Below, in pieces: positions 26,056 through 59,649 of a DNA stretch of 64,000 nt. Below the pieces are notes generated by a model, which searched no databases, was not told the DNA's origin, and was given only the letters and a program-made list of their open reading frames with translations. Origin of the DNA: Escallonia rubra. Lineage: Eukaryota; Streptophyta; Magnoliopsida; Escalloniales; Escalloniaceae. The position numbers were made by a program, and so were the translations under genes. The DNA lies in contig JAVXUO010002326.1 of assembly GCA_033065855.1 (NCBI GenBank), positions 620,001-684,000 on the forward strand. Direction: 5' to 3'. The stretch's first letter is position 1. Every line of letters starts with the position of its first letter.

Positions 26056-28039
26056 TAGCTATTCAAAGTCAAGTAGAGGGCGAGGTACCTAGCTTGTTTG
26101 GGAATGAGGATGAGGTAAAGCCCTCAATGGAGCAAGCTATGCACTAGAGGTGGTGCTACTAGACTTGTGAAAGAACAACTGTAGCTTGAAAAATTGTCTA
26201 AGTCTATATCAACTTCAGATTGATAACATTAGAAGGCAACATGCCTTTGTACAGGGAGAATGAGGATATTGAAACTTACAAAATGACATAAAAATTACAA
26301 GTGTGAAAAAATACACTAGAGCAAGGCAGGGCTTCGGTGGGTGGGGTATAGGTGTCAGCACTTAGGTGAGGCCAGTCAGGGACTTGTGAAATTCCCGAAA
26401 CTTCAAAGTGTCATCCTCCCCGTAGTGCTCTAGGAGCCAACAAAATGGGTAAGGTGTTCGCTATGATTGCTCTATTTGCTGTTAAGAAATGTGAAGGCTT
26501 GTTGCTTGTACTTCATAGGGGAGGGTTTGGTGAAAAGGTTGCTAGAGTAGGGAGCATGGCCGGATAGCTCAGAGGAAGAGTGATTTAAGAATGATTCCTT
26601 GAGATGATGGATGATGTCAAGGTCATGTTGGGTGACCTATGAAGCATGCGAGGGTTTGGGCCCGATTAAGATGATCCTAGCACCTGAGCCTCTGAACGGG
26701 GCTACCTAAGGCATATAGAATAAGGGTCAGTGGTGGGGAGCAGTTTATTATGTATGGTTTACATAGAAGTTGTGCCAACGGCAGAAGGCCTGCAGTCAAG
26801 GTAGGCCACTTAGAGAAAGTTAGGAGCATGGTTGGGACTCAGGGGGCTGTTAGTCATATTAGGATTGGGTTCCATCTCAATTGAGTCGTGACTAAGAACT
26901 CCGAACAAGGGTTAAGCAGATACATCGGGCATACGTGCCACGAGTTCTACTGTCGAGGGCCCGGAAGACCGAGGCAATGATGATCGCAACATTGGGACAT
27001 GTGTAGTGTCTAGAACTAGCCCAGGCCCTGAAGGCTGCACCTCAGCAGCATGGGCAAACCCTAAAGCTTGGGATGGTAAGGAATGAATAACAGGCACAGG
27101 TTGGAGAGCTCTAAGGCCTTAAGAGAGGGGAAACTGTGAAGATAAGACTTGGATTCAGTTTTTTTGCATCTCTAAGATTGCGACCATGAGAGAAGATTGG
27201 GAGTCATGGAGCTCGATGATGGTGGGAGTGAGGCTTTGGGCTACGACATTGATGACAATGACCACATCAGGTTCGTCCATTCTGGGGAAAGCCTGGAGTT
27301 GAACGACACTGGTCTCTTCTTGGTCCTCAAGGTGATGCTCCCCTTGAAGGCTGTGTGAAGGCTATGGCTGGTAGTCCTGGTAGCCCTGCATTGCTGAGGC
27401 ATGGGGGCTTAGGTGTATCAAAAGAGGGAGGAATTGCACTACGATGCTCACCTCCCTAGATGGAGTCACCAGAATGATGCCAAGGAAGTAGGTTTGCAAT
27501 ATACGGGGAGGATCCACAAGGAATGCAATTTGAGTCAAATGCCAAATATGGTGATGTGGGACACAGGGAGGACGGAACAATGGCAGACACCATGGCTTTT
27601 TAGACAAAGCTTGAGGAATGGCATGGAGATGTCATCAAAAGACACATGGCGCATACTGGGAGCGATACCTCACCAAGAGGCCACAAATGTTGGCGTTCCA
27701 AAGACTGTCGGATCTCATATTCACCCATCCTACCTTACATGACTTCACTTTGTCTGTCTGGAAAGACTGGCTTACACAGAGCCGGTGTGGTCAGAGAACC
27801 CCTTGATCTAGCCATAAGTCTAAAGCCCTTGTTGAGTCCTATAAGGGCGTGGAAAGACGTTGAGAACCTCAGAGTGGTGGGAAAAGGGTCTTACGCCCGA
27901 CTGCTAGAGGGATTAGGCGTGATGCCTTCTAGAGACATGTCATGTCTAGGAGTGACATAAGAGTCACACTCATAGGGGTGCCGATGAAAAGGCCCTACTG
28001 CTAGAGCAAGTTTACTAATCATGCAGACACACTAACAGA

Positions 28040-40027: not shown

Positions 40028-40045
40028 TAATAATATATATATATA

Positions 40046-40912
40046 GAAAAGCCCAACCGCAACAAAGAGTTGCGGTTGGCATCATGAAGGACAAAAGCCC
40101 AACCGCAACTCTTTGTTGCGGTTGTTCTTGTTGCCCAAGGAGTCAACAATTGTGGCTGCACTTGTCCTTCCCCCCCCCCCGTGGCCCCCACCCCTCCTTT
40201 CCCTCCCCCCGGTCGCCCCCACCCCATTATAAAGGTGAAAACTTAATTAGACAGTTTTTCACGAATTTATAAAAAATAGGTAGAGCTAAATTTTGCCAAA
40301 GTACAAAAAAGGGACCCTATTTATTTTTAAAATATCTATTTGAGGGAACAAATTCAAATTTTTCCAAAGACTAGAAAGGGGTTAACTGATACGGGAAACC
40401 TTGTAACTTTACAGTGTAATTTAAAATATCAAGCTAGCGTGATTTCCCTCGAAACTTTTATGAGAACCCTAGGATGTTGGGAAGTTCCATTCCCCAGGAA
40501 TTCGGGCCATTCCGAATTCGTTAGCTATTTTTTTGGCCGATCTGGGTTTTATGCGCTCGGGCCGGACACTGGTTCGGAATTTTTGGGCGAAAAGTACGTA
40601 AAATACTTTTTAGATCANGAATGAATTCAGGAAGTCTAAAATAGCATTTCAAAGCACTTTTGGGATTTTCTGATGCTAGGGGGCATTTTGGTAATTTGCC
40701 ACCCCGAAAGGGGTATTTTGGTAATTTTACGGTATTAAGTTTTTCAAAGGGCTTTTTAGTCCAGAAATGTAAGCAAAACACCTGAAAGGTTGTTTTGAAG
40801 CTGATTTGGGGCTGATTTGGGGGCGTTAGGGTGATAATGAACACACGGGGGCATTTCAGTAATTTACTGCCATCGGGGCTATTTTCGTAATTGAACATTG
40901 TCAAAATTTTCT
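40046..40912 (+). repeat. Left terminal inverted repeat of the MULE-like element
   Basis: Matches the complement of 58703-59522 with about 90% identity by eye, apart from small indels, for example a GGGGCTGATTT duplication near 40810. The outer part holds short palindromes CCGCAACAAAGAGTTGCGG and CCGCAACTCTTTGTTGCGG. The inner part from about 40265 resembles the solo LTR family. One ambiguous base (N) occurs at 40618. Confidence 0.85.
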
Positions 40913-40953: not shown

Positions 40954-41712
40954 CTATGACTTGTTGAGAATGATATAATTTTTATTTTTGTCAATCCGTG
41001 CTCTTCGTCGGCTCCGAAGAACATAAGACATTTTACCGTAGCAGTGTGCATGGAGACTGAGTTTGTTAATTGCAACTGTCAACTGTTTGAGCATAAAGGT
41101 ATACTTTGTCGACACGCGTTGAGGTTTTTTAGCGCCAAGAATGCTCGTGAAATCCCTCCAGAGTATATCTTGGATCGGTGGACGAAGGAAGCCAATAGAG
41201 TCCACGGTCATATTCCTTACGTGCCCAATGTTTCAGTTGATTTCGAGCAATCTGAGACGCTGCGATATAATCACCTTTGTAACATCATGCACGGTTTATC
41301 ATTGGATGCAGCGTCAACATTTGATGGGTACATGTATCAAGTTGAAGCAGCCGCACGGGATAAGGCTAACCTTGCACAGTATAGGATGGCATTACCAGAA
41401 AGACGGGACACTCCAACATCTCGGGCGACTCCAGCCGGTAGATTCAATCGAGCTTCACAGCCAGTCATTGACAGCACTAGCCTGCAAGGTGAGGAGGACG
41501 ATATTTTTGATCCAATTCTGTCTCAAACAAAAGGGCGAAAATGAGCACTACGTATGAAGGGTCCGATTGAAGAATCAACGGGTTAAAAAAAATTGCGGAA
41601 GTGTGCGTTATGTAATAAAATGACTGATCATGATAAGAGAAACCATTATAAAGTTCTAGGTATCGAACCTGGCAACATCATCGAGGATGATGATGATGAG
41701 GAAGAATTTTAG
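40954..41712 (+). pseudogene. FAR1/MURA-type transposase C-terminus with SWIM zinc finger, broken
   Basis: The frame shows HFTVAVCMETEFVNCNCQLF, then FEHKGILCRHALRFF: the CxC...CxH SWIM zinc finger of FAR1/FHY3 and MULE transposases. RWTKEANR follows, and after two in-frame stops (41542-41544 and 41587-41589 region) a CALCNKMTDHDKRNH motif and an acidic tail end at 41712. Everything N-terminal (DNA-binding and DDE catalytic domains) is missing, since the preceding sequence is the left TIR. So this is a non-functional fragment, either internally deleted or a captured FAR1-related piece. Confidence 0.8.
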
Positions 41713-41799: not shown

Positions 41800-42638
41800 A
41801 ATTTGTCACTTTTTCTTTCGCTCATTGCACCTTAGGCACGCTAGGTAGCCCAATTCTATGAATTTCGGCGAAAATCGAGACAAATAATTTTTTTGATTTT
41901 CCTATGAAAGACCTATTTACGCACACTTTATCGCTCAATTCATAGCTTCCGAAAAATGTTATAATTTTTTTTGTCATTTCTTTTTTGCTCATTGCCCCTT
42001 GGGCACGCTAATTAGTCAATTTCTATGAATTTCGGCAAAAATCGAGACAAATAATTTTTTTGGTTTTCCTATGAAAGGCCTATTCGCGCACACTTTATCG
42101 CCCAATTCATAGCTTCCGAAAAATGTTGTAATTTTTTTTTTGTCATTTCTTTTTTGCTCATTGCCCCTTAGGCACGCTAATTAGCCAATTTCTATGAATT
42201 TCGGCGAAAATTGAGACAAATAATTTTTTTTGATTTTCCTATGAAAGGCCTATTCGCGCACACTTTATCGCCCAATTCATAGCTTCCGAAAAATGTTGTA
42301 ATTTTTTTTGTCATTTCTTTTTTGCTCATTGCCCCTTAGGCACGCTAATTAGCCCATTTCTATGAATTTCGGCAAAAATCGAGACAAATAATTTTTTTGG
42401 TTTTCCTATGAAAGGCCTATTCGCACACACTTTATCGCCCAATTCATAACTTCCGAAAAATGTTGTAATTTTTTTGTCACTTCTTTTTTGCTCAATATAC
42501 CTTAGGCACGCTAATTAGCCAATTTCTATGAATTTTGGCAAAAATTGAGACTTAATTTTTTTTGGGTTTTCCTACGACGCGCCTATTCGCGTACACTTTA
42601 GCGCCCAATTCATAACTTCTGAAAAATATTGTAATTTT
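41800..42638 (+). repeat. ~168-bp tandem array, left part (about 5 copies)
   Basis: The GAATTTCGGC landmark recurs near 41860, 42027, 42196, 42364 and 42530, so spacing is 166-169 bp. Each unit contains TTTTTTGCTCATTGC, CTTAGGCACGCTA, TTCGGCxAAAATxGAGAC, CCTATGAAAGGCCTATTCGC and TAGCTTCCGAAAAATG. The array is split by the gypsy insertion and continues at 55993. It lies between the convergent FAR1-type and Ulp1/PMD fragments. Confidence 0.92.
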
Positions 42639-42922
42639 TGTTCACAACCTATCCGGACCGTATCCCAGGGCCCGCTAAAAGGCTCCAGTGGCACGACACG
42701 TCACACGCTCGGTAGTCGAACTTGCTCGACATCATTCCTCGGTGAAAACGCTCCGATGCTCGAACATCATCATCGCTCGGTCAAAGCGCTCCGCGCCGCA
42801 AGCATTCAGACGACGATCGAAGGTGCGCTCCCCCCCCGAGGGGTCGGCCACCCCTTTGGTGAGGGGGTCGGCCACCACCTTGTAAGGGGGTCGGCCACCC
42901 CTTTGCTTAGGGAGTCGGCCAC
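42639..42922 (+). repeat. Truncated 5' LTR
   Basis: Matches the first ~290 bases of the 3' LTR (from TGTTCACAACCTATCCGGAC through the CGCAAGCATTCAGACGACG block), then about four units of the GGGGGTCGGCCACC minisatellite. It stops there and passes straight into gag. The remaining ~1.4 kb of LTR, including the TATA region, and the primer-binding site are missing. Confidence 0.88.
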
Positions 42923-42928
42923 CAAACT

Positions 42929-44104
42929 TTGATCAGCCAGGAGGAGCCACCTTCCAACTATGTTTCAAAGGCTGACTTTGACGCGCTTCTTCGCCGGCTG
43001 TCACAGCAGTCCGCACCCGACTCATCGAGTCGATTGACAAGCCACGCGCCATATGCTGACGAGATAGCCATCACTCCCTATCCGTTCAAGTACAAACAAC
43101 CAGCCTTTGTGCTCTTCAACGGGCGCGAGGGCAACGCCCGTGAGCATTTGACGAGATTTGCAGGCTCATTAGAGCAGTATGGACCGGGAGACAGCTTGAA
43201 GTTGAGAGAATTCCACAAGTCCCTTACAGGCTTGGCCTACACTTGGTACCACCAGATCCCTGCGGGGACAGTCCATTCATGGCATGAAATGGTCCAACTC
43301 TTCATGGACAAATTCCACTACGAAGCTGAGCGTGTCACCGTAGTGGACATCGCCGGCATTCGCCAAGCCCCCGGCGAAGACTTGACCAAATATGTACATC
43401 GCTTTCATCTTAAGTGCCTCGAGTGCACGGATTTCAGTAAGGATGAGACGCTGGTACCCATATGCATCAAGAATATGAACGAAGTGCACCGGGGGCAACT
43501 CGAGAACTTACAATTGAGATCATGGGGACATCTCAAAGAGACGGCAAGACGTACTTACGAGACGGTCGGGCCTGTCAAGCCGTGGAGGTCTCGGCCACAG
43601 AATGCACTGGTAGCCTCAGCAGCCCCACCCGGTACCCAGCGCGGCGGCACCAGCACCGGCAGCAACAACAGTAACATCAGTAATTACACTGGCTTTAAAC
43701 GCCAGCTCCCGGACAGGGACCAACAACCAGACAAGCGGCAACAACAGGAGACTCCACCTGCCTTTCCATGCGATTTAAATACGGTGAAGGATCTATTGAC
43801 AGAATGGGTTGTCAACGACAACAACTTCCACTTACCACCTGTGCGGGTCCCCATCACGGACGAGGAAAGAACCAGGCCCAACTACTGTCCCTTCCACCAG
43901 GCCCTCGGTCATCCTCTCAAGAATTGCAATGCGTTGCGGGCCATCTTTGTAAGAAAAGTCGCATCAGGCGAGCTACAACTGCGGAAGAACAATGATGTGA
44001 GGAAAGAACCATACCCAAACCATGGCAACGACAACCGCGAGCACCAGGTGCTCATGGTTACTACCGACCACGTCGAGCCGCTCGCCCACGAAGCTTATAC
44101 GTAA
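42929..44104 (+). pseudogene. gag region, N-terminally truncated
   Basis: An open frame of about 390 codons without a convincing ATG; the frame opens at 42911 in the minisatellite, so the true N-terminus is probably lost with the LTR deletion. It contains a retrotransposon gag domain (TWYHQIPAGTVHSWHEM, then LTKYVHRFHLKCLEC) and near the end a zinc-finger-like CPFHQALGHPLKNC of the Tat gag type. A TAA at 44102 separates it from the protease frame, which lies in the same frame. Confidence 0.85.
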
Positions 44105-44149
44105 CTCTCGCCTTAGAACACAGCCCACATACCTCCTACCCCCCAGCCA

Positions 44150-45061
44150 GTGTCCTCGGCTGGCCAAATGACGAAGATCAAAGGCTTCTTTGATGAAATG
44201 GGGTTTTCACCCACGACACGGACTTATCTCTCAGACTGCTTGATCGAGGTCACCACAGGCCTCGGCCCCGAGTGCTTTGCCGCCCAGGCCGAGCTCAGAC
44301 ATGTCCCTGCCACCGCTTTTATGGTTTCAGATGAAGACTCACCAACCGTCGAGCACCATAACTGGCCACTATATCTTGAATGCACTGTCAACGGCACCGG
44401 CTTCCGCCGAGCCTTGGTAGATTGCGGCGCCTCAATCAACATCATCCCCCTCATTACTTTGCAGCGGGCCGGTATACCGCCAAGAAAGATCATTCGGGAC
44501 CCCATCAAAATCACTGGCTTTGGGCAGGGCCCCCAGTCCACTCTCGGCCTCATCACTGTCGCCCTAATGGTCGGAGCTGTCCGGCGTGACACCACTTTCC
44601 ATGTGATAGATAGAGAGTCTTCCTTCCACCTCCTACTTGGGCGACCTTGGATCCATGTCAACAAGGCTGTTCCCTCGACGTACCACCAGTGTGTGAAACT
44701 GGTGGCCGGTCCTGCGGGACATGAGGTAGCAGTAACCATCCCTACAACCAAGGCCCCTTTCGAGTGCGCCGAGTCTTATTTTGCCGAGGCCTCTTTCTTC
44801 ACCGAACTCGCTGCAGATAATGAGAATGCCACTCACATCCACTCCACCAAGCTGCCAGATTGGGATGAGCTGTGTGGGAATAAGCCACCCAAATCCAAGT
44901 TCAAGTCCAAGAAAAGCAACAAGAGCAAGGCATCAACCTCCACATCGCCATCTGATGCCACTACCATTTCCCCGCCTTCATCCCCCAAGTCCAAGAAGCA
45001 CAAGTTTGAGACCACCTTCCACCGCGTCATCCAGGACGGAAGGGTCATCTACCAGTTATGA
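44150..45061 (+). pseudogene. Retroelement aspartic protease region
   Basis: About 300 codons in the same frame as gag. It holds the aspartic protease active-site motif LVDCGASINIIP, followed by ITGFGQ and LLLGRPWIH as in plant gypsy proteases. The C-terminal part is Lys/Ser-rich linker. A TGA at 45059 ends the frame; the linker to reverse transcriptase continues at 45131 in the same frame. Confidence 0.87.
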
Positions 45062-45130
45062 CGGTGTCCGGGGGGGCCGCGGCCCGACTGCCTCGACCAC
45101 TACCCGCCTACGGAGACAGAATGGTGTTGC

Positions 45131-46486
45131 ATGGCCGAGCATTGTCCGCCAGATCACGAGCTTACACCGGGCGCTGCGCCCCCCTGCTATGAAGACAACC
45201 CTCGACCGCAGGCTGAAGATCTTGAAGAAATTAACCTGGCTGACCCGGGCGAGGAACCTCGACTGACATACATTGGCACGAAACTCGCCCTGGGCCGAAG
45301 AGAGGAATTGGTTACCCTCCTCTGCGAATATCGCGACGTATTGGCATGGAGTTACAATGAGATGCCTGGATTGGATCCTGCCTTGGTGACACACCATCTC
45401 AACATTACCACCGGGTTCATCCCAGTTTGACAGCATACACGATCCTTCCGTCCCGAACTAGAATTGAAAATCAAACAAGAGATTGAACGAATTCTACAAG
45501 TTGGCTTTATCGAGCCCATCACCCATCCCATCTGGCTTGCTATTGTTGTCCCTGTACAAAAGAAGAATGGACAAGTCCACGTTAGGAATGCCTTCCACGA
45601 TTTGAATAAGGCAGTGCCTAAAGATGAGTTCCCACTGCCCAATATTGATATGCTCACGGAGGCTGCCGCCGGACACGAGACCCTGTCCTTCATGGATGGC
45701 TTCACCGGCTACAACCAAATTCGAATAAACCCAGATGACTGTGCCAAGACAGCTTTTCGGACCCCGATGGGTAACTTTTGTTGGAAGGTCATGCCTTTTG
45801 GTCTCAAGAATGCGGGTGCCACCTATCAGAGAGCTATGACAGCTATTTTCCACGACATGATACACCGCACAGTGGAAGACTATGTTGACGACCTCATTAT
45901 TAAATCCAAAAAGGTAAGTAAGCATCCTGCGGACCTTCAGGCAGTTTTTGATCGATGTCGTCAATACAACATGCGGATGAACCCGCTCAAATGTGCCTTT
46001 GGGGTCTCCTCCGGCAAATTCCTTGGCTTCCTGGTCAGTCGACAGGGTATCGACGTTGACCCCTCCAAGGTCGCCTCTATCCGAGAGATTCCACCACCCA
46101 AGAACACCAAGCAGTTAAAAAGTTTCCTTGGCAAGGTTTCTTATCTTCGCAGGTTCATCCCCGCCTTGGCCGAACTCATCACGCCCTTCCAGCACTTGAC
46201 GTGCAAGAGCGCACCATGGAGTTGGGGTGCTCCCCAACAACAAGCATTCGAACGAATCAAGGCGGTCCTCATGTCACCGCAGACCATGGCTGTCCCGCAG
46301 CGAGGCCTACCCCTCTTGCTTTACCTAACCTCCACGCCCAGGTCTATAAGGGCGTTACTTGCTCAAGAAGTGAACGGAGTGGAACGCCCGGTTTATTATC
46401 TCAGTCGGTCAATTAGAGGACCCGAGGCCAATTATTCTGAACTCGAAAAGCATTTTCGCCTTGGTCTACGCATCGCAAAAATTTAG
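45131..46486 (+). pseudogene. Reverse transcriptase and first (gypsy) RNase H, with stops
   Basis: 45131-45430 carries the Tat linker (LAWSYNEMPGLDPALVTHHL) and ends at a TGA (45428). From 45464, in the same frame, follow RT motifs FIEPITHPIW, FMDGFTGYNQIRINP, FGLKNAGATYQRAM and the catalytic YVDD (YVDDLIIKS). The first RNase H follows (QQQAFERIKAVL, RPVYYLSRS), with its catalytic residues apparently lost, as is usual in Tat elements. A frame change near 46460-46480 moves the rest of pol to another frame. Confidence 0.9.
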
Positions 46487-47240
46487 ACACTACTTCTTGT
46501 CGCACCAGATTGTGCTCGTCACCAAGGCTGACCCATTACGATACATGCTCACCCGTCCCGCCCTGTCTGGACGACTTACTCGTTGGTTACTACTACTGGC
46601 CGAATTTGGCCTATCCATCAAGAATCCTACGGCTTTGCGAAGCCAAGCACTCGCAGACCTCTTGGCCTTCTTCCCACGTCAACAGTATGAACCGACTTCA
46701 GATCAATTGCCTGGGGAAGAGACGGCCCTGGCCTCTGATGTTGATGAATTATGGACTCTTGAGTTCGACGGCTCAGCCACTAGTAAAGACCCTAAGGGAG
46801 TTCCCGTCCGGTAAGGTGGTGCCGGCATTGTCCTTCGGAACCCATAAGGTGTTACCACCTCCCTATCTTTCAAACTCGTATTCCCGGTATCTAACAATGA
46901 AGCCGAGTACGCGGCCGTCGTCATTAGCCTCATGCTAGCCATCAGCATGGGGGCTAAATCATTGCGTGTAAATGGGGACTCGAATCTAATCATGAAGCAG
47001 GCCGATGGGGAGTTTGCAGTCAGGGAGCCAGCCTTAGCACCTTATCGTGCCTTAGTACAGCACTTGGAGGGACAGCTGGGTCATATCCAATATGAACATC
47101 ACAGCAGGTGCCACAACCGACATGCGGACAGCTTAGCCACGATCGCGTCAAAGATAGACATTGACGGCGAACAACGGGTGCTAACCATTATCAAAAGGAC
47201 GGCCCCTTGCACGACGATGGACTTGGTACCGACGGACACT
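46487..47240 (+). pseudogene. RNase H C-terminus plus second, archaeal-type RNase H
   Basis: After the frame change, LRYMLTRPALSGRLTRW and the TALRSQALADLLA tail finish the first RNase H. The second RNase H begins LEFDGSATS and continues past stops (46812 and shortly after) with NNEAEYAAVV, NGDSNLIMKQ and RHADSLATIA, the acidic D-E-D-D set of the extra RNase H in the Tat lineage. Confidence 0.85.
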
Positions 47241-48803
47241 ACGACCGATGATTGGAGGCAGCCGATCGTCGACCAGCTTAGAGCACCATCGCTCGCTTCC
47301 GTCTCCACTCGCACAGAATTCTTTATGTTGGGAGACATCATGTACAAGCGATGTCCCGGGGGCACTCTGGCACGATGCTTGGCCCCGGCAGAAGCAAAGC
47401 ACAAGTTACAATATGGACATCAAAAGTGATGCGGCCTCAGCGGACCACCACTGTACCGTCGTCTCCAGCGCATGGGTCTCTTTTGGCCATCCATGGCTAA
47501 GGATGCTTCGGATGTGCAGCAGGCTTGTTCAGAATGCCTATATGCCCCAGACCGTATGGAAGCTCTTGTCGTCAACATTGAGGGTGACTGGCGCCAGCCC
47601 TTCCTGCAATATCTGTCCCACGGACTGCTACCCTCTGACCACAGCTCGGCACGATCTATCAAACGCAAGTCGGTCAAGTACTTCGAGACGGAAGGTGAAT
47701 TATTTCGCAAGGGATTTTCGGGACGCACCCTACGATGCTTGCAGGGTGCCCAAGCAGTCGAGGTGATCAACGAAGTGCACAATGGTGCTTGTGGCGAACA
47801 TCAAGGTTCTCAGAAATTGTACGCAGAACTACTTAGGCTGGGGTACTACTGGCCGACTATGGAATCCGACGCAATCTCCCATGTACGACACTGTCAACCC
47901 TGCCAGAGACACGTAGATAGAATGCACATGCCGGCATCCGACTTACGCATGATCACGGCCCCCTGGCCATTCCACTCTTGGGCTCTCGACCTCATTGGCC
48001 CCATACATCCACCATCAAAAGGACACATTTGGATCATGGTCGCAACTGAGCGTTTCACGAAGTGGGTCGAAGCCATACCTCTGCGAAGAGCCACGGGGGG
48101 CGCCATCGCCAACTTTTTGCGCGACCACATCGTCTGTCGCTTCGGCATCCCACGATGTATTATCTCCGACAACGGCACACCATTCATCAATCGAGATGTT
48201 CGGACTCTCATGGAAGCAGACGATATCAATCATGCCACGTCGACTCCTTATTATCCGCAAGGCAACGGTCAGGCTGAAGCCTCTAACAAAACTCTGTTGC
48301 GCGTTTTGTCACGCATGGTCCATGACGCGAGTAACTCCTGGTCCGAAAAGCTAAGTCATGCCCTCTGGGCCTACAGAACTTCCAGACACACAGCTACAAA
48401 GGCCACACCTTTCTCCCTCGTCTACGTGGATGAATGTGTGGTGCCGGCCGAGATCGCAGTCGCCTCGACGCGTCTATCCCTCAGCAGTGGTCTCGGGGAG
48501 GAGGAAACTAGAATGATGGCATTTGAAAGACTTGACGAAAGGAGAGCTAATGCCATGCGACGAATGAAAGCATATCATGAGAAGCTTGTCAAAGCCTACG
48601 GGAAAACCGTCAAACCTCGCTCCTTCGCAGCAGGCGACCTTGTCCTCCAAGCCGCCAAGCACGTACGGGCCAATTTGTCAGCTCCTAAGTTTACACCTAA
48701 ATGGGAAGGGCCATTCGAAGTACATACTGCCAGGAGCAACGGCTCGTACCTCCGGCTAAATCCAGACGACGGGCAACTTACCGCCCCTGTCAATGGTCGC
48801 TAG
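47241..48803 (+). pseudogene. Integrase, with duplicated pre-integrase/HHCC module
   Basis: A first DDWRQP block (47247) leads to a stop at 47427 and to LFWPSMAKDASDV..CSEC. A second, better preserved copy begins GDWRQP near 47587 and runs to the HHCC zinc finger (HNGACGEH, CQPC). The DDE core follows: WALDLIGPI, ISDNGTPF and YPQGNGQAEASNK. The C-terminus has a FTPKWEGPFEV motif typical of Ty3/gypsy integrases; no chromodomain is seen. Confidence 0.88.
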
Positions 48804-49294
48804 CTGAAGAAGTACTATGCATGACCAGCTCGCGGCATGTCCCCGCCCCCCCCCCCACAACCTGACATTTTGTGTATATGCACACATGTACTAGCTTGTA
48901 CTTTTGTTTCTTGTTACGAGTTCCTTTTGTGTAAAGACATTTCCTTGATCCACGCATTATCAATATACGATCTTTTTACTCTATACCGCTGTACTTTGTC
49001 TCTACTTCTGTTTTCATTTCTAGTTATCATGATTGTCCTCAAAAAAAAAAAAGAGAAGAAGAAGAGAAGCAGAACAAGGAAAAGGACGGGGGGGGGGGGG
49101 AGGGACACAGACAGACATCCAACAGACACAACAAACAATCGTCACACGCGACGCTTATACCATACATCAACGACAGGTGTTAACAAAGCAGCATGCAGTT
49201 ACATTTCATATACCAACAAGATCAGTGTTTATACATACATAAAATGTCTTTGGCCACTACCGGGCACTCCCTAGACAGCGAATCTATGCTAAAC
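48804..49294. other. Spacer between pol and the antisense gene
   Basis: Contains homopolymer runs (C at 48846-48857, A at 49040-49051, G at 49088-49100) and otherwise simple non-coding sequence. This would be the 3' flank of the minus-strand PMD gene and the 3' flank of pol. Confidence 0.5.
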
Positions 49295-50446
49295 CTATCG
49301 GAAGCTAGATAACAAAACAGCTACCGGGTGAGCGCTAAACGCCTGCAATGCCTGACGCTGAACCTGCAGCGCCGACCGCTCTGCCTCGAACTCAGCCTGC
49401 CGCCTCAAACGCTCAGCCTCTCGCACTTCCACATCCGTCCGCCGCCTCTGGAGATCACTCAGGCGTCTCTGCAAGTCCGACAGCTGCCTCTCTATCTCCG
49501 CCACCTCTCTGTCAATCACGACCAACTCTCCGTTGATCTCTGATCGTTCCACCTCTAACCCTTGGTGGCGCCTCTCGAGCAGCATCTCCTCCATGCGTAC
49601 CAAGGTCATCCTCTCGCCCACACCACCACCCTCGCTCCTCAACCTAAAGAACTCGGCCAACCAATCTAGCTGCACACCTAAAGAGGTGAACGTCGCGAAC
49701 TCTCTCAGCAACCGCTCAATGAACCCCGTCGTCCAGCCCGCCGCAGGAACACTCGCAAACGGAAGCAGCCACTCCACAAAACCCGAGTACACCCATCTCT
49801 GCAGCACCGGGTTCTCCAAGCCCACCCCCGCAAACGTCTGCGGATACGCCGCCTTCACCATCTCTAACCGGCGCACTGTCTCTGAAGGTAGCTGAAGGTT
49901 CTCCCACAGTACCACGTCAGCCTGACCGCTCGACGACCCCCTACTCGCATCTCCGGCCGCCGTGCCACTCGACGCCATCACAGGCCTCTCACGTACCTCT
50001 CCGGCTGCCTGCGCACCAACGGTCATCGAGTGCATCGCCATCAACGTCGCACTCGCCTCAACGGCCGACCCTGACGGCGCCACCACAAGAGCCTGTACCG
50101 GCTGCGTCGGGATCTTCACCTCCTGAATCGGGACCGCCCCTGTAGGCTCCAACTCTATCAAATCCCCCTGCTCAACCGCGGCGGCCTCCGTCGCCGCGCC
50201 TGTCCACCAATAGCCACTGGCGTCGAACATCAACGACTCGTCGACCAAGCCATCATACACATCATCCGCCCCCTCCTCGACATCTGGTGGTGGACTCACC
50301 CCGCCACTGGCCCCGGCCACCGACACGCCAACCGCTACCGGCTCATCCCTGCCTACTGGCTCGTCAACCTCGGCTGCTCTCGCCGCCTCCGTCTCGACCG
50401 CTACATTCGCATCACTGCCGCTCTCCACCGCATGTCCCACGTACCC

Positions 50447-50541
50447 CTGTCCAAAACCAACCATTAGTATATTTCATATAATAACCACATCAAAAGAAAA
50501 CAAGACATGGCTTAATCACAAGCGACCACAATGCGGCCTAC
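50447..50541 (-). other. Second intron of the antisense PMD gene
   Basis: 95 bp. Donor GATTGAG|GTAGGC, acceptor TTGGACAG|GGGTAC. The join is at a codon boundary and links EEPVIE to GYVGHAVES in the same frame. Confidence 0.7.
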
Positions 50542-51752
50542 CTCAATCACTGGCTCCTCCGACGCATCTCGCGGCCTCTTCGATTCTGTCAGCCGCAAGT
50601 CTGAAGAACATGCGCTCGCCTGACGAGCCCTCTCCATCATACCGACTCGCAATAACGACAGCGGCCCCTTGCCGGCCCTGGGCACCCGCGGTACCGCCAC
50701 CACTGGCTCTTCCCATTGGTCCTCCTCTCGAGCCTCCTCCTCGGACCCCTCACCCTCCTCGTCGGGATCCTTCTCTGAACTCACAACCGCACTCCCCGTC
50801 ACTAACACCAGAATGCCGGCCTGCCTCGCCGCTGTCATCGATACCAAGCTCAACGCCCGGTCGCAGGCGAACACATCAACCACTCGTCGTGTCCCCGATG
50901 GCTGTGCCAACCACTCCCCCAGCCCGACCGCAGACGCTCCCACCACTGTGCGTACTCCACCGTCACCGTCCCCACTGATGCTCTCCCCGGCCTCCTCCAC
51001 GTTACCACCGGTACCGGCCACTCACGAGCTCTGTCATACCGCGTGTATCCGAATGCGGTCGTCACACTCCATGGGCTACGATACCCGCACGGCGGCTCCA
51101 AGTCATAACCAAATGTCCGCGACAACCGATCCGGGCAATACCGAGCCACGTAATACAGGTTCTCTGCAGGCTTCCCGCCATCATCAGTCATCACTGGCAG
51201 CCAACCTGGAAAGTAAGCCACCAGGAGCATAACGTCTGCCGGCGGCAACCCCCCATCGTGGTCAAATCTATCGTCATCTCCTGTCCGTGCAACCAGGGGG
51301 GTACTCCGTATGACGCATGCATCTCTCTATACGGCCATACTACGCATGCCTCCCTCGCATCTATCAACCGCGATAGCGGGCACTCCGGCCTCTTGATGCC
51401 CACCCATGCAAATGCCCGCGCCCCGCTGCACCATAGTGCCACTTCCCGCAATCTACCGCTGTGCATCACTGTCCTCGTCCTCGGTGATGGATGCTCAAGC
51501 GGATATCCTGCCGGACGATAGTCTGGAAAACACTCATACAGGTACCGCTGAAGAAACATCCAATCCACGTAGGTCGCCACTTGGTACCGCCCATGCGACC
51601 TCTTCACGTCGTTCACAAACTGATCCAACCGCGAATACATGGTGCCCAGATATACGGCAGCTAGCCCAACACGCTTCCCCCTCGCCATCCGAATCGCCAG
51701 GGGAATCACCTTCGCGGATATGCCGTCCTCCGGCGTCCCTTCAAACACGAAC

Positions 51753-51844
51753 CTGCAAAACAAAACAACACGCCAACGCATTATATACAACCTCAACTCA
51801 CATCGCATCTACGAACATACGAACAACGAACGCATCATACTTAC
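51753..51844 (-). other. Intron of the antisense PMD gene
   Basis: 92 bp. The donor GTCGAG|GTAAGT and acceptor TTTTGCAG|GTTCG join MYLSR to FVFEG in frame, which restores the usual PMD order. This supports a spliced minus-strand transcript rather than a chance antisense frame. Confidence 0.8.
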
Positions 51845-52849
51845 CTCGACAAGTACATCGTCAGAAAGGCCGCCATCTCGTACCGCTCGTCCTTGTGATA
51901 CGGCCCCATCACGAAATGAGCTGCATTGCCCAATTTCTGCCCCGCCCTCACCTGCGGCGTCCCGTAGAACAATCGAAGCCACCCGCTATATGTCACCTTC
52001 CGATGCTGCTTCGTCTCCGCCAAAATATCAATCAGCTGCGTCTGTAACACCCGCTCATCATTAGTCAGCCGCGTCACGCGTGCGTCCAACTCTCCATCCA
52101 TCGGCAACCCCGTCAACATCATCACATCTAGCAGCGTCGGCCCGATCTCTCCGAACTCCGTCACAAAAGTATGTGTCTGAGTGCTCCATCGCGACAACAG
52201 CAAGGTCATCCCAGGCGTGTCTCTGTACAGCTCCACTCCCCTCGCCGTGATGTCAATCGCCGGCACCAACCCCAGCACATCCAATAATGCCGCCCACCTC
52301 GGCACCTCCATCATGGCTCACACCAGAAGTCCCACCCGATCGGCATCGCACCGTGACCCTTGAACACCACGGGTGCCCAGGGTATATCCGCACGCTCCAC
52401 CAACAGCCCAGCCACATACCTCGGCGACGGCACAGGCGCATCCTCCCAGCTAGGAGCCCGCACATATGGTGACGGTGCCCGTGGCTCTTCCCCCATCGAC
52501 GCACCACTCCAAGGCACTGTGAACGCACCGTCTGCTACCCGGATGGCCAGCTCCCTCCACAACTCCCGGCCAGGCACGGCTGGTACTACCCCTTTTACCC
52601 TCAACGGCGTCACCGTCTTATCCGGGTCCGGATCATACGTCCTCACAGACGCATCATCGAATGAAAGCGGCACTCCCGTCTCCTCACCTCCCGCAACTTC
52701 GGCATCATCTATCGGCGGGGGCGGCACTGGTTCCGTCGTCACATGTCGCGGTGGCCGCGCCGTACTCGCCGCACCACCTCGTGGTTTCGCCCACATCTGC
52801 TGCTTCAACTTTTTCAGCACGGGCACTGGCTCAGCGGGCATCACCTTGC

Positions 52850-53345
52850 CCAAACCCCCCGCCGCCGTCGACTTCCCCCCAGCTCCCGACCCCCCCGCCG
52901 CCGCCGACTTCCCACCAGCTCCCGACCCCCCCGCCGCCGACTTCCCACCAGCTCCCGACCCCCCCGCCGCCGATGACTTCCCCCAGCTTCCGACCCCCCC
53001 CCCCCGCCGCCGACGATCTCCCTCCAGGTCCCGAGGCCTTCGGCGCCGACGACCCACCTCCTGCTCCCGACCCCCTTTCTTCTCTCCTCCCTTCTCTTCC
53101 TCTTCCCCCCGCAGTAGCATCCCCCGACCCTCCTCTCCCGGCCGACGACCCTTGCGTGGCCGACCCCCCTCCCCTCTCCCCCTTTTCCCTCCATTCTCTC
53201 CTCTCTCCCGTGTTGGCCGACCCCCCCGGGGTGGCCGACCCCCCTCGACTGGCCGACCCCCCTCCCCTTTCCCCTCTATCCTCCCTCCTTCCCCCATCCC
53301 CTCTTCTTTCCTTCTCTCCACCGCCGCCGACCCCTTGGCCACGAC
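52850..53345 (-). repeat. Low-complexity 5' coding region of the antisense PMD gene, with LTR-like minisatellite units
   Basis: At 53150-53290 the plus strand shows repeated GGCCGACCCCCCTC, the complement of the GGGGGTCGGCC unit in the LTR minisatellite. At 52855-52985 a CCCCCCGCCGCCGACTTCCC unit repeats about four times (GAGGKSAA on the minus strand). Translation here is Gly/Arg/Ser-rich and without domain structure. Confidence 0.75.
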
Positions 53346-53477
53346 AACCCCCATCTGCGGCCGACCCCTCGGCCAATTGTTTCCCCTCTCTTACCATTTC
53401 TTCTCTCTTCTTCTCTCTGTCAATTTTTTTTCCCAAATATGGAATGACTCTTTACAAACCACTCTCCCCCCTTTCCC

Positions 53478-53487
53478 TATTTATAGA
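53478..53487 (-). promoter_or_regulatory. TATA box of the antisense PMD gene
   Basis: CTATAAATAG on the minus strand, about 125 bases upstream of the ATG at 53354. A TGGGCC-type site lies just upstream (GTGGCCCACTTC on the minus strand). Spacing and sequence fit a plant core promoter, so the gene probably does not depend on the LTR for transcription. Confidence 0.6.
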
Positions 53488-53639
53488 AGTGGGCCACACC
53501 AAAACAAAAAAACGGGCACCATCCCGCGGGAATCGACACCTCCTCCGGGACACATTTTTTTCAAACTTCCTTCCTGTCGGGTAGACGGCTCCTCCGGGAT
53601 ACGACTTTGACGCGCTACGAGTGCTCCGGCACTACGACC

Positions 53640-54215
53640 CCCCATGGCGGGACGGGCTCACAACCTTAAAGCCCTCGCCGGCACAATCCACCGGGGGCTC
53701 CGGCCCTTACCCGTCTCAATCAAAATGGGGGCTCCGGCCCTCGCATCCGGGATGGGCTCTCAACCTTATAGCCATCCCCGTCTCAATCAAAATGGGGGCT
53801 TCGGCCTCGAACCAGGATGGGCTCTCACGCTTATAGCCATCGCCGTCTCAATCCAGCGACGGGGCTCCGGCCCTCGCATCCGGGATGGGCTCTCAACCTT
53901 ATAGCCATCCCCGTCTCAATCAAAATGGGGGCTTCGGCCTCGAACCAGGATGGGCTCTCACGCTTATAGCCATCGCCGTCTCAATCCAGCGACGGGGCTC
54001 CGGCCCTCGCATCCGGGATGGGCTCTCAAGCTTATAGCCATCGCCGTCTCAATCAAGCGACGGGGCTCCGGCCCTCGCATCCGGGATGGGCTCTCAAGCT
54101 TATAGCCATCGCCGTCTCAATCCAGCGACGGGGCTCCGGCCCTCGCATCCGGGATGGGCTCTCAAGCTTATAGCCATCGCCGACACACTCAACAGGGGGC
54201 TCCGGCCCTCGCAGC
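53640..54215 (+). repeat. Tandem repeats of 65-68 bp before the 3' LTR
   Basis: GATGGGCTCT recurs at about 53751, 53816, 53884, 53949, 54017, 54085 and 54153, giving spacings of 65 or 68. The unit contains GGGGCTCCGGCCCTCGCATC and CTTATAGCCATCGCCGTCTC. Two unit variants alternate at the left and become uniform at the right. Shorter relatives (GGGGCTCCGGCCCTCG) recur inside the 3' LTR at 54985-55160. Non-coding. Confidence 0.92.
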
Positions 54216-54524
54216 GGGCCCTCGCACTGAGCGACGACCATGCCCAATACATCCAACACCGTTTATGCGTGCGGCACCCGCTCGGGTTACCCCTCCGCGC
54301 CCCCCGCACGCAGGGGGCTTATGTTCACAACCTATCCGGACCGTATCCCGGGGCCCGCTAAAAAGGCTCCAGTGGCACGACACGTCACGCGCTCGGTAGT
54401 CGAACTTACTCGACATCATTCCTCGATGAAAACGCTCTGATGCTCGAACATCATCATCGCTCGGTCAAAACGCTCCGCGCCGCAAGCATTCAGACGACGA
54501 TCGAAGGTTCGCTCCCCCCCCCCG

Positions 54525-54880
54525 AGGGGTCGGCCACCCCTTTGGTGAGGGGGTCGGCCACCCCTTTGCTGAGGGGGTCGGCCACCCCTTTGCTGAGGGG
54601 GTCGGCCACCCCTTTGCTGAGGGGGTCGGCCACCACCTTGTGAGGGGGTCGGCCACCCCTTTGGTGAGGGGGTCGGCCACCCCTTTGAAGAGGGGGTCGG
54701 CCACCCCTTTGCTGAGGGGGTCGGCCACCCCTTTGCTGAGGGGGTCGGCCACCACCTTGTGAGGGGGTCGGCCACCCATTTGCTGAGGGGGTCGGCCACC
54801 CATTTGCTGAGGGGGTCGGCCACCCATTTGCTGAGGGAGTCAGCCACCCCTTTGGTGAGGGGGTCGGCCTCCCTTGTCCT
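54525..54880 (+). repeat. LTR minisatellite, 24-bp unit, about 14 copies
   Basis: The unit GGGGGTCGGCCACCCCTTTG followed by CTGA or GTGA repeats head to tail. A few copies replace CCCCTTTGCTGA with ACCTTGTGA, which gives a higher-order pattern. The 5' LTR remnant keeps only about four units. Confidence 0.95.
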
Positions 54881-55639
54881 TGAGGGGGGGAGGGGACCTG
54901 CTTACCACTGCCATCACCCCGCTCAACTCATTCAGCAACGCTCATTCATCGCTAGTAGGCGCGTGACGCCCATTAGCGCCGACACAATCAGCCGGGGGCT
55001 CCGGCCCTCGCCCGCACAACCAACCGGAGGCTCCGGCCTTCGCCAGCACAATCGATCGACGAGCTCCGGCCCTCCCAGACACAATCAACCAGAGGCTCCG
55101 GCCTTCACAACAGGGATGGGCTCACGACCCTAAAGCCCTCGCTGGCACAATCAACCAACGGGCTTAAAGGGACTCCATTCGCAATACCCCGGTCCAAGGA
55201 CCATTCGCCACAGACTCCGGATGTCAAGTTGCGAGCATGTGCATTCGTATTACCATCGATCATCGACACCGCCAGGGCAATGAACCGCGAGTCACTCCGG
55301 GACGGGAGCAGGTCTTCGGAGGGCATCGCGTCCGGCACACCTAGCAGTTGGCTGCAGGGGCAACCCTCACCGCTGCCAGGGTCTCGACGCGTCTCTAGAC
55401 GCATCTCGTGGGATTCAGTAAGGGCTTGGACTGGAGGCTGGGGCAACGGGCTACTCTGACCATGCTACCGCAGTGTGGTCAGTCTTCTCAGACAGGCAGA
55501 GGGACGCTGCAAGGGCAGGACGACACGAACTCGGGGACCGGCAATTCGACGGACAATCAAGACTGCGAGACCCCCTACGGCGACGTGTCACTCCCAAAGG
55601 ACGACACGTGTCGGCTGATGACACGCGCATATCTGTGCC

Positions 55640-55648
55640 TATATATAG
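55640..55648 (+). promoter_or_regulatory. TATA box of the 3' LTR
   Basis: TATATATAG in a CCTATATATAGTGGATTC context. This is the probable core promoter of the LTR. The truncated 5' LTR lacks it, so genomic transcription of the retroelement from its own 5' end is unlikely. Confidence 0.6.
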
Positions 55649-55992
55649 TGGATTCTGGAGCTTATTCAGGGGCTCTGCCTCATTTGCCATTTTTACTTTC
55701 TCTCTCTAAAACTTATTCTCTCCTGATTTCTAGTCAGAGAAAGGCACTAGAGCTTACGACTTCGAGCTCTCGACGTGGCACTCTTGACACAGACTGTCGA
55801 CTGCTGACCCTGTTCGTTGTCACCCTGCTTGCGCGACACTGCCAGCCCTCGTGACCTGCCTGAGGAGCCTTGCTCTCAGCCCTTACGTCATCCCTGTTGT
55901 CTCCCACTCTGCCTACTTGGAAGCCAACTCAGACTGCATCCCTTGTGGCACCTCGACGTGGCAAAGGACCCTCTTTCGGCATCAACAATTTT

Positions 55993-56560
55993 TTTTGTCA
56001 CTTCTTTTTTGCTCAATATACCTTAGGCACGCTAATTAGCCACTTTTTATGAATTTCGGCGAAAATCGAGACTTAATTTTTTTTTTGTTTTCTTACGACG
56101 CGTCTATTCGCGTACACTTTAACGCTTATTCGCGTACACTTTAGCGCCCAATTCATAACTTCCGAAAAATGCGACGTTTTTTTTTGTCACTTCTTTTTTG
56201 CTCAATATACCTTGGGCACGCTAATTAGCCAATTTCTATGAATTTCGGCGAAAATCAAGACTTAATTTTTTTTTTGGTTTTCTTACGACGCGCCTATTCG
56301 CGCACACTTTAGCGCCCAGTTCATAACTTCCGAAAAATGTTGTAATGTTTTTTGTCACTTCTTTTTGGCTCATTGCACCTTAGGCACGCTAGTTAGCCCA
56401 TTTGTATGAATTTTGGCGAAAATCGAGCCACGTAATTTTTTTGAATTTTCCTATGAAAGGCCTGAGACGCACACTTTATCGCCAAATTTATAGCTTGCGA
56501 AAAATTATGTACTTTTTTTTAAGGGGTTCTTTGCTCATTGCACCTTAGCCACGCTAGTTA
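55993..56560 (+). repeat. ~168-bp tandem array, right part (about 3.5 copies)
   Basis: Continues the array interrupted at 42638: the GAATTTxGGCG landmark occurs near 56051, 56240 and 56408. The first spacing is longer (189) because TATTCGCGTACACTTTA is duplicated at 56105-56145. It ends at the 3' end of the Ulp1-type fragment. Confidence 0.9.
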
Positions 56561-56949
56561 GGATAATGGTAATGAAGGCATCTAGCTTCATTCTTTTTCA
56601 GCTCCCAGGCTATCCTATACCTAAACGTCAAGGCATCCTTCCTAGTCCACGACGTATATTTGAGCACCTCCGAGCGAGCAATGTAGTCCATGTACTTGAG
56701 GACGTAAATCCCGCAATCGTGACTGTTATCTTGGTTTGGTCGGTCCTGTATCATCACGACCGTCCAAGGCTCTACCGTCGAATTCCTGGTGATGGATTCC
56801 CCCGAATAATCTCGGCACGCTAGCGAGAGGATAGTAGTCTGCATCCAACAATAAAAAAGGTCATCAAGCCTATGTAACAAGAAGAATATACTATGAGCCA
56901 AGGTCAACAGATAAAAACTAACCACTGCAGTGATGTACTCGCTGTACAT
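56554..56949 (-). pseudogene. Ulp1-type protease C-terminal fragment (MULE-carried)
   Basis: The translation contains WTVVMIQDRPNQDNSHDCGI, followed by YVLKYMDYIA. The Q...DCG signature gives the catalytic Gln and Cys of Ulp1/SENP SUMO proteases (C48). The His and Asp of the triad would lie N-terminal and are not present in frame. Ulp1-like genes are well known cargo of Mutator-like elements in plants. It ends shortly after MDYIARSEVLKY with a 131-codon frame. Confidence 0.8.
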
Positions 56950-57026: not shown

Positions 57027-58278
57027 CTAATAGGAACAAGTGGTTTTCATGATGACAAGGTATTTGAAACTGAAATTAATAGGACCAGCTTGCCTCATAG
57101 CTCGATCGGGCATATGAAACTCACATTCTTCGAAGTGAATAAGCGGCACCCGAACCAAACCTGCCAGCACGTACGACACCGGAAGTTGCCAACACCACTC
57201 ATCCAACCGATGCATCACCTTGCCATATGGCTGCCACGTCACCTGGGATGCATCCAGTATCTCTAGTTCCCCCCGATAGAACTCTAGATGGTGGTGAGGG
57301 TCTACCCGTCTCCTCCTCCGGTTGGTCGTAGGCCCCCAGGCCCACACCCTAGGCCACGTGTCATCAGAATATTCCCGCGGTTGTGGACGACCCGTGGTTA
57401 GCCTCTCGTAAGAACCAAACCTGTGAATGCAAACATTATATGGAATTAGTAATTAATCACGAATATATTGACACGTCAAAACAAGAATATAAATGCTCAT
57501 ACCTGTAATAGAGTCAGGCAGGCGGCAATGGACTTGGCACCCTTTCTCGTAGCCTTATGCAGTGCTCGATATAGGTGCGCGAGGACAGCTGAACCCCACG
57601 AATACGAGTATACCTCCTCAAGATCCTCCAAGAACACCATATACTTCGGATGCACCGTGTTTTTCGAATGCGTCGGAAGTAATATAGCTCCAATAATATA
57701 CAGAAGGAATGCCTTCGTATAGGTCACGAAATCATGAGGAGTGTATTCATCCGGTAGCACGCCGTACTGCTCTCTCAGTCATTTAAGTTTGATGCCATTT
57801 GTTGTAAGAGCTTCCCTCGGAATTCTCAAAAATACTGCCTAGCCATATTCGCTATGGATGCAGACATTTTGCTCAAAGTAATGGGTCTACCGTGACATGG
57901 GATTCCAAGTATAAATCCGACGTCCTCTAATGTAATAGTCATTTCACCAAACCGGAAGTGAAATGAGTTCGTTTCGCTCCTCCATCGTTCAACTAGAGCG
58001 GATATAAGGCAATCGTTGTGCCGAGACCAAATCCCGTAATCGGTGAACATAGATAAATTTTGACGGTGTAATAGTTGTATTTGTTCCTCGTTTAGTACCC
58101 ACTCTTCGAGGTGACTTGTGCTTTGAATTGTTTCCAAAACACCCCTATCGACATCGTCAAATACCACCCTAGGCCACATGGTCATCGTCATCGTATATGA
58201 TTGATGTATCATGAGGTCCGGGGTTGAAATACATATCTCTAAGAACAAAATATAATCGTAAACCAACTTAGCGTCCAT
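57027..58278 (-). pseudogene. Plant-mobile-domain gene of the MULE-like element, broken
   Basis: On the minus strand: EEWVLNEEQIQLLHRQNL, then LISALVERWRSETNSFHFRF and FGEMTITLEDVGFILGIP (58278-57826); after frame changes, VLPDEYTPHDFVTYTKAFLL and EDLEEVYSYSWGSAVLAHLY (57760-57503); an intron at 57502-57421 (CAG|GTATGAG, TTCACAG); then RVWAWGPTTN, HLEFYRGELEILD and HMPDRAMRQAG (57347-57027). This is the full order of a PMD (MAIN/MAIL-type) protein. Stops and at least two frame changes (around 57830-57760 and just after the intron) break it. It may originally have been joined to the downstream Ulp1 domain. Confidence 0.82.
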
Positions 58279-58299
58279 AATATTAACATTCCAAAACTA

Positions 58300-59365
58300 T
58301 AACTGGATATTTAACCTAGCTTACCAACGCATTAGCAATAGTCATTATCTCATTATTTCAATGTATTAACACAATTCCTCACTTCCCACCACTCCAAACG
58401 CTTAATTACACCAGTTCCCTAAAATTTAGAGCCAACGTGGCAATTTACCAATATACCCCCGATGGCCGCTACACCACCAACACCTCAAAACCGCTATAAA
58501 ACTACTTTTTAAATGTATTACATCAATTATATACCAAATATTTCTTCAGAAAATTTTAAAAGGAAAAGTTACCAAAACACCCCCAACTTATGCAAAATAT
58601 CCCCTAGTAGCCATCGCCCCAACAAAAATCTCAGAACAACTTTAAAATAACTTTTCGTGTGTCTTACACCCCTTTCCGAACTAAAGACCTTTCGGAAATT
58701 TTTGACAATGTTCAATTACGAAAATACCCCCGATTGGGTGGAAAATTACCGAAATGCCCCCGGGGGTTCATTATCACCCTAACGCCCCCAAATCAGCTTC
58801 AAAACAACCTTTCAGGTGTTTTGCTTACATTTTTGGACTAAAAAGCCCTTTGAAAAACTTAACACAATAATATTACCAAAATACCCCTCTCGGGGTGGCA
58901 AAGTACCAAAATGCCCCCTGGTATAAAAAAATCTCAAAAGTGCTTTGAAATGCTATTTTAGGCTTCCTGAATTCATTCTTGATCTAAAAAGTATTTTACG
59001 GACTTTTCGCCCAAAAATCCCGAACCGGTGTCCGGATCGAGCCCTTAAAAGCCCGTTCGGCCAAAAAAATAGCTAACGAATTCGGAATGGCCTGAATTCC
59101 TGGGGAATGGAACTTCCCAACATCCTAGGGTTCTCATAAAAGTTTTGCGGGAAATCGCCCTAGCTTGATATTTTAAATTACACTGCAAAGTTACAAGGTT
59201 TCCCGTATCAGTTAACCCCTTTCTAGTATTTGGAAAAATCTGAATTTGTTCCCTCAAATAGATCTTTTAAAAATAACTAGGGTCTCTTTTTTGCACGTTG
59301 GCAAAATATAGCTCTACCTATTTTTTATAAATTCGTGAAAAACTGTCTAATTAAGTTTTCACCTG
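58300..59365 (+). repeat. LTR-derived segment inside the MULE right end
   Basis: Collinear and in the same orientation as solo LTR A at about 30680-31455: shared blocks include ATAACTGGAT..TTAACCTAGC, CAAAACAACxTTTxAGGTGTTTTxC, CCGAACCGGTGTCCGGA, AAAAGCCCGTTCGGCxAAAAA, GGTATTTTAAATTACACTG-like and TTAACCCxTTTC. The part from about 58703 outward is also present, inverted, in the left TIR; the part 58300-58700 is not. Confidence 0.8.
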
Positions 59366-59649
59366 GGTGGGGGCCACGGGGGGTGGGGTGGGGGGGGGAA
59401 GGACAAGTGCAGCCACAATTGTTGACTTCTTGGGCAACAAGAACAACCGCAACAAAGAGTTGCGGTTGGGCTTTTGTCCTTCATGATGCCAACTGCAACT
59501 CTTTGTTGCAGTTGGGCTTTTCTCCGCTATAATTCCTTTCGCAACACTTTGTTGCGGTTGAGTTTTTTCCTCTTTTCTTCAACCGCTGCTCTTTGCAGCG
59601 GTTCAGTGGAGAAATAACAATTTCTCCACCGGTGGGTGTGGATCGACCC

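Follow-up and report, generated by a model that had tools for sequence, protein, structure and literature searches.

A Putative Antisense Plant Mobile Domain Gene with Predicted Introns in a Damaged Tat-Type Retrotransposon of Escallonia rubra

Introduction

Here we describe a gene carried on the antisense strand of a plant retrotransposon, found in a 64,000-nucleotide stretch of the Escallonia rubra genome (assembly GCA_033065855.1, contig JAVXUO010002326.1, positions 620,001 to 684,000 of the forward strand). We call this whole stretch the window, and all coordinates count from its first letter. The retrotransposon is a damaged Ty3/gypsy element of Tat type (42639..55987, plus strand), and the gene, which lies on the minus strand between the integrase and the 3' long terminal repeat (LTR), encodes a plant mobile domain (PMD) and has a TATA box of its own, two predicted introns, and a predicted C-terminal coiled coil—an anatomy that we consider highly likely to be correct. 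We read the gene as a degraded representative of a class of antisense accessory genes that is already known, with a function that is probably regulatory. Our fuller reading, in which it is an accessory gene of a Tat-type element whose coiled-coil PMD protein regulates the element or counters its silencing, is offered tentatively, as one that may well turn out to be wrong.

The Antisense PMD Gene

The gene lies between the end of the integrase open reading frame (ORF) at 48803 and the start of the 3' LTR at 54322, and comprises six minus-strand ORFs, which were compared with Pfam. Half of these match the PMD family PF10536, and they do so in order along the domain: ORF 51841-52317 covers profile positions 7-119 (E 4.6e-16; 59.4 bits, above the cut-off of 34.9), ORF 51191-51808 covers positions 114-195 (E 3.7e-7), and ORF 50850-51326 covers positions 272-347 (E 0.0015), the last two each falling below the cut-off when taken alone. 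The remaining ORFs (52311-53390, 50512-51021, and 49295-50473) have no Pfam match above cut-off, and the TRP28 domain (PF04195) was not found in any of the six. Read along the minus strand, the gene begins with a GC-rich N-terminal reading frame (52311..53390) whose start codon and frame are uncertain, and continues into the PMD-coding end of exon 1 (51845..52317). Exon 2 (50542..51752) supplies the remainder of the PMD followed by an acidic stretch, and is interrupted by two frame changes; exon 3 (49295..50446) is predicted to encode a mostly disordered region, a helical stretch, and the C-terminal coiled coil.

The two predicted introns keep the reading frame. A hand count from the ends of the ORFs puts both borders of intron 1 (51753..51844, minus; 92 nt, GTAAGT...TTGCAG) in phase 2 and both borders of intron 2 (50447..50541, minus; 95 nt, GTAGGC...GGACAG) in phase 0. 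On a simple consensus score, in which ties occur, intron 1 has the top-ranked donor among 331 GTs and the top-ranked acceptor among 365 AGs on the strand; intron 2 has a rank index of 15 for its donor and 10 for its acceptor, counting from 0. The codon at the intron 1 junction corresponds to PF10536 position 119 when approached from both neighbouring ORFs (by hand, assuming no gap in five residues). The GC content of the introns is 0.41 and 0.38, compared with 0.60-0.62 in the exons. As predicted introns, we regard intron 1 as strongly supported and intron 2 as moderately so.

Upstream of the coding sequence is the TATA box TATAAATA (53478..53485, minus), the sole exact occurrence of this word in the element on both strands. 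At the other end of the gene, the last exon, extended by the final 27 nt of intron 2, forms a stop-free run of 392 codons, longer than any run in 300 dinucleotide shuffles (maximum 185 for 49200-50560 and 322 for 49200-52400). AlphaFold2, given the single sequence of ORF 49295-50473, left about half of it unfolded (mean predicted local distance difference test score, pLDDT, 53.4; predicted template-modelling score, pTM, 0.29), and placed a long helix at residues 286-391 (49301..49618, minus), with pLDDT of 74-98 over residues 291-380 and 63 over residues 381-390. An NCBIfam SMC match over this helix is weak (E 7.4e-4, far below cut-off), and we take it as a sign of coiled coil. The initial annotation of this DNA, made from the letters of the sequence, had proposed a TATA-boxed minus-strand gene between pol and the 3' LTR, a pair of introns whose removal keeps the PMD order, and a C-terminal coiled coil; all of these were recovered here, the introns with GT-AG borders and the coiled coil as a structure prediction.

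Searches for relatives found none. The first PMD piece matched no solved structure by sequence; peptide patterns from that piece, the integrase, and the reverse transcriptase (RT) found no relative in viral contigs, nor did those from RT in prokaryote genomes; and tblastn of the first PMD piece found none in plasmids. Because these are viral, prokaryote, and plasmid collections and not plant ones, the searches say nothing about rarity.

Words Shared between the LTR and the Antisense Control Region

Words of the LTR recur at the leader of the antisense gene and in an array upstream of it, which is a new observation here. The word GGGGTCGGCC has 23 copies in the window: 14 in the 3' LTR, three in the 5' LTR remnant, five across the leader and N-terminal part of the PMD gene (53158..53368, minus), where they are inverted relative to the LTR, and one at 37952 (minus), the sole copy outside the retrotransposon. 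A near-palindromic 15-mer, GGGGTCGGCCACCCC, has 11 copies, with eight in the 3' LTR, two in the 5' LTR remnant, and one inverted at 53228—this last is one of the five leader copies in its full 15-mer form. Farther upstream of the gene there is a 68/133-bp tandem array (53710..54213, no strand assigned), one unit of which is identical to the LTR at 55094 in 53 of 68 positions, while 100 single-base shuffles reach at most 38; a further word, GGCTCCGGCC, has 10 copies, seven of them upstream of the PMD gene and three in the LTR.

Sharing was also measured as the number of 10-mers in common with the 3' LTR, for five regions with 200 dinucleotide shuffles each. The observed value beats all 200 shuffles in two of the five, the leader (30, against at most 24) and the upstream region (75, against at most 14), and there is no excess in the PMD exons, gag-pol, or the C-terminal exon, where 176, 103, and 161 of the 200 shuffles, respectively, come up to or exceed the observed value. 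Part of the shared leader words are plain runs of C, and the sharing as a whole should be taken as an excess that calls for explanation and not as the outcome of a blind test, since the words were picked after the repeats had been seen and arrays count repeatedly. The shared words could reflect common regulation or mere duplication between neighbouring parts.

The Host Retrotransposon and Its Damage

The element has TG...CA ends and is flanked on both sides by ATTTT (42634-42638 and 55988-55992), a 5-bp repeat that is weak by itself because the insertion site is T-rich. Its broken gag-pol region (42911..48803, plus) contains gag, protease, RT, RNase H, a second RNase H-like domain, and integrase, in that order; Pfam matches were obtained in six of the seven gag-pol ORFs tested, the one without a match being 45062-45430. 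The second, archaeal-type RNase H (RVT_3) sits between RT_RNaseH and the integrase, an order described for the angiosperm Tat groups Ogre and Retand (PMC6317226), and by this domain order the element is assigned to the Tat clade of Ty3/gypsy, in the Ogre or Retand group. A further ORF, 48825-49274 (plus), has a weak Pfam match below cut-off and was not used, and no Rfam family was matched in 42600-56000.

The 3' LTR (54322..55987, plus; 1666 bp) holds a 24-bp array at 54526-54888 and a TATA-like site at 55640. What is left of the 5' LTR (42639..42923, plus; ~285 of 1666 bp) is 94.2% identical to 54319-54610 over 292 aligned columns with no match beyond, and it runs directly into gag sequence after about 285 bp; the portion that would match the TATA-like site is gone. 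This may be an assembly collapse in the repeat instead of a real loss. No primer-binding site, of the tRNA type or other, was seen, though no systematic search was made; with the 5' LTR cut before its end, the site would be missing. Within gag-pol, a scan of two frames turned up seven internal stops, and the reading frame changes at least once. Outside the array, the LTR pair differs by a Kimura two-parameter distance of 0.036 over 201 sites; at assumed substitution rates of 1.3e-8 and 7e-9, this would correspond to 1.4-2.6 million years. The initial annotation had overlooked these stops and the loss of the 5' LTR, along with the frame changes in the antisense gene and an enclosing Mutator-like element (MULE) that has PMD and Ulp1-like genes of its own.

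Comparison with Known Systems

Steinbauerova 2011 is reportedly cited for PMD proteins of gypsy retrotransposons. The PMD-A1/A2 sequences of gypsy elements (Ikeda 2017, PMC5418596) likewise lie inside a plant gypsy element; the descriptions drawn on from that paper are without introns, antisense strand, or coiled coil, whereas the present gene, as predicted, has all three. The likeness to Ogre elements extends to the Tat clade, the second RNase H before the integrase, a large LTR, and a PMD in an extra ORF, which is common to 57% of Ogre elements (Neumann 2019, PMC6317226). In Ogre, however, gag-prot and pol are described as separate ORFs with about 274 bp between them and an intron on the sense strand (PMC6317226); here, a single frame appears by eye to continue from protease to RT through 45062-45430, interrupted by stops at either end.

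In layout, there are parallels with elements that carry antisense genes. The Retand TRP28 elements (Vicient 2025, PMC11963269) also have a gene on the antisense strand, placed between pol and the 3' LTR in a region that holds tandem arrays; antisense TRP28 is reported in 97% of recent Retand clusters, and Smc-like matches are given for several clusters in Table 1 of that paper. The initial annotation was right that extra antisense ORFs are known in Tat elements. Unlike in Retand, a PMD replaces TRP28 here and the LTR is 1666 bp long, compared with 315-1194 bp (PMC11963269); that paper mentions neither PMD nor introns. The maize Grande element has gene23, an antisense 3' gene with its own promoter (PMC7264820), and the likeness to it is one of layout. 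Gypsy PMDs, antisense 3' genes, an antisense promoter, and coiled-coil matches are already in print separately. The earlier suggestion that the combined architecture may be undescribed holds to the extent that searches of an open-licence library turned up no antisense PMD gene with introns.

Interpretation and Alternative Explanations

The points that we count for an accessory gene with a regulatory or counter-silencing protein are the ordered PF10536 pieces, the agreement of both neighbouring ORFs on profile position 119 at the intron 1 junction, the splice-site ranks, the AT-rich introns, the TATA box, the long helix, and the words shared with the LTR. We infer that transcription of the gene started at its own promoter and ran in the direction opposite to that of the genomic RNA, and that the transcript was spliced; in the genomic RNA, the introns are present as their reverse complement and would therefore remain unspliced there and be inherited via reverse transcription. 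It had been claimed earlier that introns survive in a retroelement only if the gene is antisense: the inheritance of antisense introns stands, but this is not the sole way, as Ogre keeps a sense intron that is spliced from a subset of transcripts (PMC6317226). With less certainty, the protein would be nuclear, probably dimeric through its coiled coil, and would act on the transcription or silencing of the element. The host PMD proteins MAIN and MAIL1, which the first reading of the sequence had named as relatives that affect silencing, are required for silencing of transposable elements (PMC5418596, PMC7156037); they have the plant mobile domain in common with the present protein, but they are host genes (PMC5418596, PMC7156037, PMC9899485). 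The most likely role would be that of an element-made counterpart of these MAIN/MAIL-type proteins, blunting silencing; counter-silencing by PMDs made by transposable elements has already been proposed (PMC8616336; for MULEs, PMC5418596). We hold this role at modest confidence, with somewhat more doubt than the reading as a whole.

Several observations weigh against this reading. An exact copy of the DOWN motif, which has been linked to MAIN/MAIL1 (PMC9899485), is found nowhere in the window; with one mismatch the motif occurs four times, including twice in the element (45938 and 49192), and never in the LTR or the antisense promoter. In this copy, the antisense gene lacks an intact reading frame: it changes frame at least three times, and neither intron accounts for this; the changes lie near 52311-52317, inside 51191-51326, and inside 50850-51021. 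Two of these three places contain a G run, six or five long, where sequencing error may be the source; extra introns are disfavoured as the cause, since the flanking protein text looks continuous by eye and two of the changes are at G runs. This copy is a relic, as the gene does not yield a single continuous protein and the greater part of the 5' LTR is absent. The initial annotation had concluded that the element can carry a promoter-driven PMD gene: an antisense, intron-bearing, TATA-boxed PMD gene is indeed part of the element, but in this copy it does not encode one protein.

The broken state of this copy would also suit a functionless PMD gene that was carried antisense as a passenger and is now decaying, and a screen has found several such domains in gypsy elements, with a discussion of an acquisition flow in which most acquisitions are rejected (PMC9289625). 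Set against this, PMD recurs in many gypsy elements, and the PMD-A clades are gypsy-only (PMC5418596, PMC6317226); the PMD pieces also have no in-frame stops in the frames scanned, compared with seven in gag-pol, although at a chance of 0.05, or 0.11 counting close pairs once, this difference is too weak to claim that the PMD frame has been kept better. We think a mere passenger unlikely. Far less credible is a nested insertion, with the PMD gene as a piece of a different transposon that had inserted into the retrotransposon: MULEs carry PMD and the surrounding one has its own, but no inverted-repeat pair of at least 60 nt brackets 48.8-54.3 kb (shorter ones are possible), and the similarity to the MULE's PMD is only 38% over 39 residues. 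The intron at profile position 119 is, moreover, absent from the MULE's PMD, because ORF 57497-57778 runs through positions 108-181, and the words in common with the LTR also argue against such an origin, which we consider the least probable of all.

It may instead be the antisense RNA that matters, by pairing with the genomic RNA or feeding small RNAs; antisense transcripts have been proposed as a source of double-stranded RNA (PMC7264820), and 175 phased-small-RNA loci are reported at PMD genes in tea (PMC10673657). A non-coding role, however, needs neither a PMD nor in-frame introns, and we rate it as rather improbable. The same low rating applies to a role of the protein in some other step, for instance in bringing the pre-integration complex into the nucleus or in choosing the target, which has been suggested for antisense proteins generally (PMC7264820) and to which nothing in the present sequence points in particular. 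The element could also be a self-contained two-way switch, in which a PMD dimer would bind both the LTR and the control region of its own gene. Such a switch would draw on GGGGTCGGCCACCCC, which has repeated copies in the LTR, upstream of the TATA-like site on the sense strand, and is found again in inverted form 0.1-0.35 kb downstream of the antisense TATA box; it would also draw on the second repeated block, upstream of the antisense gene, of which the LTR holds further copies. The coiled-coil PMD protein encoded on the antisense strand would control the LTR plus its own gene. Gypsy PMDs would then recognize specific sequences to regulate the element that encodes them, and would be the ancestors of the host silencing factors MAIN/MAIL1 or mimics of them. 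We regard this as very unlikely.

If antisense accessory genes of the kind proposed here are real, PMD genes that are borne by an element with their own promoter and introns would provide a test of the domain's origin as an anti-silencing or self-regulatory factor. Should the element's own protein prove to have binding sites in both the LTR and the antisense gene, these would give a target sequence for a PMD protein. The spliced layout and the DNA motifs in common with the LTR are the aspects worth testing; surveys restricted to long unspliced ORFs would split or overlook intron-bearing antisense genes.

The Surrounding MULE and Other Features of the Window

The retrotransposon is inserted within the MULE, in its 167-bp tandem repeats. 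The terminal inverted repeats of the MULE (40045-40811 and 58786-59523) are 93-94% complementary over 579 and 145 nt, and between them lie a SWIM-domain remnant (40960-41544, plus), an Ulp1-like C48 domain (56554-56949, minus), and the MULE's own PMD in three ORFs (57027-58296, minus). In a tblastn search against the rest of the window, the match of the first PMD piece to the MULE's PMD has an E of 3.3e-5, and the two other PMD pieces and the C-terminal ORF gave nothing below E 1; this one nest holds two unrelated-looking PMD genes. A GT...AG segment in the MULE's PMD (57421-57502) looks by eye like a likely intron, but its sides are out of phase and we do not claim it: either the segment is not an intron with these borders, or the MULE gene is itself broken.

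The left end of the MULE has one undetermined base (N; 40620-40624), and no tRNAs were found in the window. Finally, an 82-bp segment at 26363-26444 (minus) is 73% identical to part of the gag end of the retrotransposon (query 519-601, window 43157-43239; E 2e-6), and is perhaps another gypsy fragment.

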